IMG/VR virus record: IMGVR_UViG_3300042549_004519
Coordinates: 1 to 23,566 of that record
Length of the DNA: 23,566 nucleotides
Direction: 5' to 3' (one strand)
Origin: a virus
Part shown: positions 18,685 to 20,413 of the stretch, one piece after another
Layout: every line of letters begins with the position of its first letter
Position numbering within the stretch: position 1 is the first letter of the stretch
The notes under the pieces: model-generated
The model's input: the letters and a program-made list of their open reading frames with translations, nothing else
The model's database searches: none
What the model was told of the DNA's origin: nothing
Translations under genes and position numbers: made by a program

Positions 18685-18723
18685 ACTAGTTGCAACAATT
18701 CTCTCTAATTGTTAGTTCATGTG

Positions 18724-18761
18724 TTCCTCAATTATCGGCTCGGATGATTGGGGAATTTTTT
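18724..18761 (+). terminator. intrinsic terminator after the replication operon
   Basis: A 13-bp stem, TTCCTCAATTATC (18724-18736) with GATGATTGGGGAA (18743-18755) including two G-U pairs, a six-base loop and six T. A smaller hairpin (AACAATT 18694-18700 / AATTGTT 18707-18713) lies just ahead of it. Confidence 0.88.
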
Positions 18762-19012
18762 AGTTATCAAGTCATAACAGACTGGCTCTAAGGTGGTCGC
18801 AATCATTAACGTGATGATGTTAACGCTCTATGGTGTAAGTCCTCACCTGTTATGACTTGATAGTTAATGCGTAGGCTGATGCGCTATGGAACGGGGTAGA
18901 AGCCCAAAAGCCTAGTGGAGTGTTACTGTAGGAGTAACTATCTCGAAAGAGTAAGCGTGTGTTAAACAGCACCACAAGCCGGAGATTAGCACCGGCAACT
19001 ATCATTTTCAAG
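18762..19012 (+). ncRNA. candidate structured non-coding RNA, class not recognised
   Basis: About 250 nt with no protein-like frame but dense, strong inverted repeats. Segment 18765-18780 pairs perfectly with 18847-18862 (16 bp); inside lies an 11-nt direct repeat GCTCTAWGGTG (18785-18795 and 18825-18835) and a TTAAC/GTTAA hairpin. Segment 18858-18865 also pairs perfectly with 18997-19004 (8 bp), closing a multibranch with helices 18872-18877/18909-18914, 18922-18927/18933-18938, CTC-GAAA-GAG at 18942-18951 and GCCGG/CCGGC at 18978-18982/18992-18996. The two long helices share 18858-18862, so they exclude each other. Strand is assumed; the same helices would form on the other strand with small changes. 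No tRNA, tmRNA, RNase P, group I/II intron or known riboswitch core was recognised. Confidence 0.5.
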
Positions 19013-19037
19013 AATTCAGAAAAAATTTTGGCATTTG

Positions 19038-19136
19038 GTTTCGTGGCAAAATTTTGCAAATCGTTTCGTGGCAAAAATTGAGCGTTCATTAGATTTGAAA
19101 TCCTAAGCATTCCCAAATTTGAAATCCTGAGCCTTC
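19038..19136. repeat. iteron-like array of four imperfect 24-25 bp units
   Basis: GTTTCGTGGCAAAA at 19038 and 19063 (25 bp apart); ATTTGAAATCCT at 19093 and 19117 (24 bp apart); units 2, 3 and 4 end in GAGCGTTC, AAGCATTC and GAGCCTTC. The array thus looks like two diverged pairs on a common period. Such iterons are typical of replication initiator or regulator binding. Confidence 0.6.
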
Positions 19137-19317
19137 ATATATACGCGTTTCATCACATTTACTTGTGATTTTACGCCCGCGCTTGTCATTGTATAGGGTG
19201 TTTTTATAACCTTTATTGGCTTGCTGCAAGCTGATTGAATGTTAGGCAATACTAGGGTATTGCTAAACTATTTATTGCAGTGTAACGGGCTTTATACGTC
19301 GTTAAATGATAAGCAAT
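19137..19317. other. non-coding stretch with dyads between iterons and terminators
   Basis: ATCACA (19152-19157) / TGTGAT (19164-19169), flanked by GCGT and ACGC, forms a hairpin. GCTTGC-T-GCAAGC (19219-19231) is a compact dyad. GCAATAC (19246-19252) / GTATTGC (19257-19263) is a 7-bp hairpin. No gene is seen. The dyads lie downstream of the promoter at 19183-19210 and could be operators or parts of a short RNA. Confidence 0.5.
19183..19210 (+). promoter_or_regulatory. candidate sigma70-type promoter
   Basis: TTGTCA (19183-19188), 16-bp spacer, TATAAC (19205-19210). No gene lies downstream on the + strand before the convergent terminators, so if active it would make a short RNA or an antisense transcript to the clamp gene's 3' end. 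Confidence 0.45.
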
Positions 19318-19339
19318 AAAAAAGGCCTGTTAAGGCCTT
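19318..19339 (-). terminator. second (distal) intrinsic terminator of the clamp operon
   Basis: Read on the - strand: AAGGCCT (19339-19333), four-base loop, AGGCCTT (19328-19322), then a T run. It is followed by ATTGC, as in the neighbouring terminator at 19358-19380. Confidence 0.75.
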
Positions 19340-19357
19340 GCTATTGTTTGGGGCAAT

Positions 19358-19380
19358 AAAAAAAGCGGCCTTTCGGCCGC
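19358..19380 (-). terminator. first intrinsic terminator of the clamp operon
   Basis: Read on the - strand: GCGGCC, GAAA loop, GGCCGC (19380-19365), then seven T (19364-19358). It lies 68 bp past the clamp stop. Its sequence resembles the hairpin before the DNA polymerase gene (14467-14491). Confidence 0.88.
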
Positions 19381-19447
19381 CCTCTTGTTTAGTTTTCTAG
19401 TAGTATTGCCAAAATGGCAAACTTTACCAGTATTAAAAATATTATTA

Positions 19448-20413
19448 TCATAATCTCATTGCCATAACAATATTGGTTTGAAACGTATCGCGATTAATTT
19501 GAATTAAGCTATCACGAAAACTTAGCATAATGTTTTCGTCTTTATAGCATTCAAGCGCATTAAGTAAATAGCCGACGTCAATGCCTTCACTTGCTTTTGT
19601 GCCACTTGAAGTAATAACTGGTACGCTTGCAAGCGTGGTGCCCTGATAATTAAAATTTAACGTTTTATTTGTAACAGTTAAAACCACGCCTTGTAATTTG
19701 GGTGGTAAAAACGGCGTAACGTCTTTTATCGCTTGTATTAACGCTTTTCTGTTAACGTCAATATCACCGTTAATTGTCGTATTAAACACTTTCGAAAAAT
19801 CAGGATATCGATGGTCGATTAAGCGCGTCTCAATGGTCCAGTCATCACCCGTAAATTTAGCGTGACTTTCGGTCACTGTCATCAAACAAGATGTTTTAAT
19901 TTTACTTAATATCAGTAACGCCTCTGTTGGAAATAGCGCACTAAAATCAGGACCCGTTTCGCCCATTGCCGTATTCATGATGAGCTGATGCCCGTCACTG
20001 CCGACAATTTGCAATTTATTGTTTTCTCTTTTAAATTGCATGCCTTTTAAATAATAACGTACCTCTTTTGGACCGCCCGTCATTTTTAACCACTTGGCAT
20101 TTATAAAGCCGGCCGGGATATGCTGAATGCCTATAATTTTATTGTCATCTTTAACGCCTTGAAAAAACTCACGTTCAGATAACGGCAGCGCGTTACTTTT
20201 AACAGTTAAATCTGCATCAATATCAGTTAACTTGAATGCTTTGATTTTAGCTAATTCTAGTACCGCGCTTTTATTATGACGCTTATACAATTCAACGTTT
20301 AACATACCAGTGTTTATTTTTACACAATCACTTTCAAACTTTGCGACGTGATACCCTGCCGCGCGTTCTTTTAATGCTTGTTTTACTACTTCAGCGAAAA
20401 TTATATTTTTCAT
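19448..20413 (-). CDS. DnaN-like sliding clamp, 321 aa
   Basis: The C-terminal two thirds match the bacterial beta clamp: LQIVGSDGHQLIMNTAM corresponds to the conserved ATDGHRLA block, IDHRYPDFSKVF to the following Pro-Asp block, and the last residues NIVMAMRL to the VVMPMRL end that lines the partner-binding pocket. The first domain (residues 1-110) is diverged. At 321 residues it is shorter than the usual 365 or so. A clamp would ring DNA and tether the phage polymerase or other proteins; alternatively it could compete with the host clamp. AAGG lies upstream of the ATG at 20413. Last gene of the - strand cluster, followed by two terminators. Confidence 0.85.
   Translation of the reverse strand: MKNIIFAEVVKQALKERAAGYHVAKFESDCVKINTGMLNVELYKRHNKSAVLELAKIKAFKLTDIDADLTVKSNALPLSEREFFQGVKDDNKIIGIQHIPAGFINAKWLKMTGGPKEVRYYLKGMQFKRENNKLQIVGSDGHQLIMNTAMGETGPDFSALFPTEALLILSKIKTSCLMTVTESHAKFTGDDWTIETRLIDHRYPDFSKVFNTTINGDIDVNRKALIQAIKDVTPFLPPKLQGVVLTVTNKTLNFNYQGTTLASVPVITSSGTKASEGIDVGYLLNALECYKDENIMLSFRDSLIQINRDTFQTNIVMAMRL

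Follow-up and report, generated by a model that had tools for sequence, protein, structure and literature searches.

The window, by which we mean the whole 23.6-kb viral record analysed here, contains a predicted structured RNA between a primase gene and a convergent gene. In this RNA, a helix (P1) and the contact between the loops of two hairpins (A and B) frame a variable insert, and a long 5′ hairpin precedes the core and shares one strand of the P1 helix. Covariation of the P1 helix, both hairpins and the loop-loop contact in homologous sequences is decisive for the predicted fold. The whole is best explained by an undescribed family of phage noncoding RNAs, in which a constant frame surrounds exchanged inserts and which would be transcribed and processed to display these cassettes as decoys; we consider this reading to fall somewhat short of probable. 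An earlier note on this DNA had described a structured RNA of 251 nt with mutually exclusive long helices. Its observation was right and is larger than first noted: instead of one 251-nt fold, a kissing-loop core built around a variable insert is preceded by a 5′ hairpin that is variable too, each forming a module of its own. The note had overlooked the contact between the loops and the replaceable nature of the insert.

Anatomy of the predicted RNA

The primase terminator that had been placed 5′ of the RNA is real as a pattern (Table 1). The gene upstream of it matches a phage DNA primase family, and the hairpin is retained in two relatives (L016 and L032). A consensus scan found no plus-strand promoter between the terminator and the RNA in the window, and ARAGORN found no tRNA in the window. 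The gene 3′ of the RNA lies on the opposite strand and is convergent.

Table 1 Features of the RNA and its upstream terminator in the window
Feature	Position	Strand	Observations
Intrinsic-terminator-like hairpin of the primase transcript	18723–18756	+	Consensus scan; followed by a T-run, with the RNA immediately 3′
5′ hairpin module	18765–18862	+	16-bp stem 18765–18780/18847–18862 with variable interior; 3′ arm continues into the 5′ strand of the P1 helix
P1 helix, 5′ strand TGATAGTT	18858–18865	+	Common to two mutually exclusive helices; covariation at 8/8 pairs
Hairpin A	18869–18884	+	Stem GCGT/GCGC, loop AGGCTGAT; stem covaries, loop nearly invariant
Kissing-loop strand GCTGAT, loop A	18875–18880	+	U-A replaced by C-G, in concert with loop B, in five lineages
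Variable insert (cassette)	18885–18977	+	Local helices and GAAA tetraloop; fold z −1.35
Hairpin B	18978–18996	+	Stem GCCGG/CCGGC, loop AGATTAGCA; covariation at 4/5 stem pairs; in >120 viral contigs
Kissing-loop strand ATTAGC, loop B	18985–18990	+	Partner 18875–18880 (one G-U in the window); covariation
P1 helix, 3′ strand AACTATCA	18997–19004	+	Abuts hairpin B directly; covaries with 18858–18865

Two short tandem repeats lie between the RNA and the convergent gene (19023–19072 and 19093–19136), with units of 25 nt and ~24 nt, TTTCGTGGC and ATTTGAAATCCT. T-run hairpins at 19322–19380, between the convergent transcripts, are probably terminators in both directions. A beta-clamp-like protein (Pfam DNA_pol3_beta_2, PHROG processivity factor) is encoded on the minus strand at 19448–20413, opposite a family A DNA polymerase and a primase-like DUF5906 protein.

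Both long helices proposed in the earlier note are exact, with 16 perfect Watson-Crick pairs in the inverted repeat and 8 in the P1 helix, and they do compete. The 16-bp stem and the P1 helix cannot both be complete, because positions 18858–18862 are common to them. A repeat finder lengthens the stem to 21 nt at 90% (18760–18780/18847–18867). Within the P1 helix, the hairpin helices of the window span 18869–18873/18880–18884 and 18978–18982/18992–18996. The local helices that had been seen inside this second fold are present as well (18894–18897/18902–18905, 18922–18927/18933–18938 and 18942–18944/18949–18951, the last closed by the GAAA tetraloop). Their support comes from folding energy, since the same cassette occurs only in the near-identical L016 and L032.

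With hairpins A and B forced and the loop-loop contact excluded, the state with the full 5′ hairpin is calculated at −74.4 kcal/mol and the P1-helix state at −72.0 kcal/mol. The two states lie 2.4 kcal/mol apart before the kissing loop is counted and are therefore near balance.

Homologues in phages and prophages

The family search started from a sensitive nucleotide search against phage genomes. Its short, weak matches repeat two blocks of the window (18863–18896 and 18970–18999) in intergenic gaps of unrelated phages, often beside tRNA genes. The block consensus is GCGY-AGGCTGAT-GCGC for A and GCCGG-AGATYAGCA-CCGGC for B. Scans of viral contigs returned at least 120 contigs for each block, and 190 two-block instances were reduced to 166 distinct cores, from which a few spurious ones were later dropped. 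In the retained instances, the bases 5′ of hairpin A pair with those directly 3′ of hairpin B, forming the P1 helix. A model of the P1 helix, hairpins A and B and the complementary loops (R1) scores the window at 77.1 bits (E 1.3e-21), which is partly so by construction because the window is in the training alignment.

Over 160 distinct sequences of phages and prophages contain the core, among them IMG/VR records, the N4-like phage ZC03, D3, phage P1 and lambdoids. By blastn, it is present in at least 935 of 5,426 complete E. coli genomes (at least 17%), and 237 of the places found are in plasmid records; the plasmid-borne example that was examined is P1-like. Genome searches by taxonomic order with the model scored a small share of the first-look candidates, and the resulting low counts were not used for prevalence. 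A 19-mer scan of genome contigs mixes true copies with chance matches in GC-rich genomes and was not used for host range.

Phage P1 carries in tandem one full unit (69816–69919) and a degenerate one (70077–70202), antisense to the annotated plp and upl, and a P1-like sequence (L345) contains three units. Lambdoid copies are located between an antiterminator and a holin gene (e.g. L349) or upstream of yfdP. A structured RNA family carried by phage P1 and by at least one-sixth of the complete E. coli genomes seems to have remained unclassified so far, and it is testable at once in laboratory phages. Part of the classic phage P1 genome map may need correction, since the array is overlapped by the annotated genes plp and upl, which run antisense to it. 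In a contig whose positions 473–1042 equal 69472–70041 of phage P1 NC_005856 (L396), plp and upl run across the RNA array and may be spurious frames over structured RNA.

tRNA genes within 2 kb of the core lie on the same strand in 55 cases and on the opposite strand in 2. Such a gene is found within 300 nt in 25 of 179 copies and within 2 kb in 31; the other 148 have none, many contigs being incomplete.

Covariation, shared strand and orientation

Fold energy of the window is modestly better than that of shuffled sequences (z −2.4 on the plus strand, −2.8 on the minus strand), so the evidence above chance comes from the homologues. The covariation that the earlier note had named as a check is present in the P1 helix, in hairpins A and B and in the loop-loop contact. 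Across 142 distinct cores, 2262 of 2414 cells are Watson-Crick, 66 are G-U and 33 are A-C. In alignment A1 (64 sequences), 96.4% of cells are paired compared with 83.1 ± 0.5% after shuffling, and the covariation score is 0.373 versus 0.119, a value reached in 0 of 500 shuffles. Two-sided changes occur at all pairs of the P1 helix and hairpin A and at 4 of 5 pairs of hairpin B. Alignment A2 (53 sequences) is 97.1% paired versus 80.5% shuffled. The first seed holds hairpin B fixed and the second hairpin A, and both were used against circularity.

Loops A and B are complementary, with GCUGAU/AUUAGC in the window and GCUGAU/AUYAGC family-wide. This contact hardly varies: a direct search for changed loops found a changed central base in 12, 3 and 22 contigs, compared with more than 120 unchanged. 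C replaces U in loop A together with G for A in loop B in five lineages (L351/L356, L355, L358, L360 and L378/L379); in L350 the loop change is uncompensated. At this pair, alignment A2 has 44 UA, 5 CG, 3 UG and 1 other. The kissing loop is well supported by the compensatory C-G changes and the U-G intermediates.

The shared strand is likewise a property of the family. A hairpin ends just outside the P1 helix in 70 of 169 contexts, and 55 of these 70 hairpins extend by at least 4 nt into the P1-helix strand. Swapping the P1-helix strands between contexts gives an expectation of 17.6 (maximum 25 in 200 trials) in a test that allows one defect. A strict test for 8 bp with no gap is weakly positive (31 versus 16.6), because many stems are bulged there, and we relied on the one-defect test. 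The conserved overlap shows that mutually exclusive pairing is selected. The relative L032 has the same terminator and core as the window and a wholly different 5′ hairpin, both arms of which have changed together, with TGATAGTT and its partner kept. The predicted 5′ hairpin is a separate module.

One inner closing motif, ATTG...CAGT with its constant U-G wobble, recurs in many upstream hairpins (L003, L009, L047, L106, L122, L149 and L189); it is absent from the window hairpin and is a possible recognition element. In eight others (L024, L050, L064, L091, L099, L109, L202 and L211), a third small hairpin with a GNRA-like loop (for example GGAAAGAC, CACGAAACG, CTCGTAAGG) stands 5′ of the first paired strand and often abuts the 5′ hairpin, as hairpin B abuts the P1 helix. 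Several prophages, among them L346 and L348, share a further element, CGGCGTATGGCACATGCGTCG...GGTAGCCGGAATGTGCAAG, that lies upstream of the 5′ hairpin and looks structured.

Conserved mutually exclusive helices would suit a cis-acting switch (an attenuator, antiterminator or leader), in which the shared strand flips and controls downstream transcription, for example of lambdoid late genes. The terminator-like hairpin directly 5′ of the RNA in the window and the antiterminator-holin position in some prophages point the same way. We nevertheless regard such a switch as distinctly unlikely, because in many copies, that of the window included, the next gene downstream is on the opposite strand (29 of 95 contexts). 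No consistent downstream gene is found, the fixed position before a co-directional gene seen in riboswitches and leaders is lacking, and no family of that kind matches. A switching RNA, a ribozyme or a regulatory phage RNA had been suggested in the earlier note. What stands of this is an unassigned structured phage RNA, for which covariation and conserved strand-sharing make a switch or strand exchange plausible; nothing points to catalysis.

Several asymmetries indicate the strand. G-U exceeds A-C by ~2:1 on the plus strand in the 142 distinct cores. Terminator-like hairpins occur within 250 nt downstream in 40 of 157 contexts on the same strand versus 5 on the opposite strand, and promoter-like sites are weakly enriched (14, compared with 2 on the opposite strand and 5.5 in shuffled sequences). 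A mechanically called minus-strand ORF of 88 aa with a TTG start (18850–19116) overlaps the RNA in the window. No reading frame is conserved, as 60 of the 179 homologous cores lack any open frame, which agrees with the earlier view that no frame is protein-like. From the G-U excess, the terminators and the tRNA orientation, the element is predicted to act as an RNA on the plus strand. The same three asymmetries, with the U-G intermediates of the kissing loop, make it very improbable that we are dealing with a DNA-level element devoid of RNA function, such as a folding site of recombination or exchange through which cassettes spread. Cassettes and hairpins are indeed exchanged between otherwise different phages, but ordinary homologous recombination at the conserved blocks explains this.

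Related RNAs, cassettes and possible function

The earlier note had recognised no known class, and a covariance-model search bears this out: at the gathering score, Rfam 15 has no family over the window core (E up to 5) or in 30 relatives. Permissive E-values gave weak unrelated matches only, mostly on the opposite strand near 19279–19455. The core sequence is absent from open-access paper texts. A large catalogue of predicted viral RNA structures reportedly compiled by Fremin and co-workers in 2023 may contain the motif unnamed. We count the family as categorically new, because no known family matches and no described equivalent of a frame plus cassette was found. A hammerhead-like reading of CUGAUG..GAAA was rejected, as the core lacks the required bases on inspection and has no Rfam match; cobalamin-riboswitch-like pieces in R656 (GGGAGCCGGTGG) have no Rfam match either.

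GOLLD and ROOL, though unrelated, are the closest in setting. Both are Rfam families of phage and prophage RNAs of unknown function near tRNA islands, with profiles from Rfam; GOLLD has a conserved and a variable part, sometimes with tRNAs in its linker, and ROOL is pseudoknotted (PMC12286853). The new RNA shares with GOLLD the phage setting near tRNA genes, the conserved and variable parts and the occasional tRNA inside. The proximity to tRNA genes holds for the family and not for the window. GOLLD, however, is often longer than 800 nt and assembles into a 14-mer cage, whereas the new RNA has 85–250 nt and another sequence and fold; ROOL is much larger and of another structure. Neither family's sequence and structure matches the window core or the 30 relatives by covariance model.

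The layout also recalls tRNA and tmRNA, with a closing stem, a D-arm-like hairpin, a T-arm-like hairpin abutting the stem and touching loops; the insert takes the place of the anticodon arm. tmRNA also has a large insert. Unlike in tRNA, a kissing loop of 5–6 pairs replaces the D/T elbow, hairpin B has no TTCRA T-loop and there is no CCA end. No cloverleaf with T-loop and anticodon was found in the window by ARAGORN, and no Rfam tRNA match over the core.

The anti-sRNAs AgvB and AsxR of EHEC are encoded in the moron region of lambdoid prophages after the antiterminator gene and have conserved 3′ and variable 5′ ends (PMC4104026). Some lambdoid copies of the new RNA lie after the antiterminator gene in this same neighbourhood and also combine conserved and variable parts, which raises the possibility of a trans-acting regulatory RNA or anti-sRNA, with variable regions that would pair to RNAs of the host. 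This is quite improbable: AgvB-type RNAs are 51–60 nt long, Hfq-bound and variable at the 5′ end, with no kissing-loop frame described, whereas the new RNA is longer and highly structured, with inserts that are mostly folded (mean z −0.83 relative to shuffled sequences). C4 antisense RNA of P1/P22-type phages is a structured phage RNA too, and lies a few kb away in L147; it has its own Rfam family, another position and another structure.

Clustering of the inserts from 179 cores gives 132 clusters, several of which recur with different P1-helix sequences and different 5′ hairpins. Whole inserts and hairpin interiors are traded between phages, with the frames conserved. A search for cassettes common to the insert and the 5′ hairpin gave two short matches only. 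tRNA T-arms are enriched ~tenfold in inserts and upstream modules alike: they occur in 9 of 160 inserts, compared with 0.9 in shuffled sequences and none on the reverse strand, and 16 of 169 upstream modules have them, compared with 1.7 and 1. A recognisable T-arm is missing in 151 of 160 inserts. ARAGORN finds a tRNA inside the core of L069, the insert of L196 has a tRNA-like sequence, and the 5′ hairpin of ZC03 is a tRNA-Arg with an extended acceptor stem.

These three cases and the same-strand tRNA genes nearby are what a scaffold for processing or protecting phage tRNAs would show, by folding and spacing tRNA or tRNA-like units in a polycistronic transcript for cuts by RNase P, RNase E or RNase III. 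However, tRNA-like inserts are the minority and most copies have no tRNA gene within 2 kb, so we judge the scaffold unlikely.

This anatomy is what one would expect if a phage RNA were processed to a stable form and displayed exchangeable RNA domains. The unit would be transcribed, commonly together with phage tRNAs, and then trimmed to the stable RNA. During synthesis, the shared strand would at first be paired within the 5′ hairpin, from which the P1 helix would partly capture it as soon as hairpin B and the loop-loop contact have formed. This capture would set the two domains apart and seal the frame from nuclease attack.

We suggest, with some reserve, that the displayed cassettes may serve as decoys or sponges for a host factor that binds or cuts RNA; a tRNA-targeting defence or a host regulator would be examples. 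The suggestion draws on the constancy of the frame, the changing inserts, some of them tRNA-derived, and the positions among phage accessory genes; decoys would explain why constant frames surround hypervariable inserts. It is a more doubtful proposition that Pseudomonadota phages share a modular RNA display system, with a kissing-loop frame, exchangeable, often tRNA-derived domains and arrays beside tRNA genes, acting as decoys against host RNA-directed defences and with its fold set by co-transcriptional strand exchange. The RNA may also combine several of these roles. Should the cassettes be decoys, phage counter-defence would gain an RNA-based arm; GOLLD and ROOL, the role of which is a standing question, would gain a much smaller analogue.

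Inserts of L149 (1613–1724) and L011 (1501–1611) contain a cassette with AGUACGAGAG (AGAACGAGAG in L011) that resembles, perhaps by chance, the sarcin-ricin loop of 23S rRNA.
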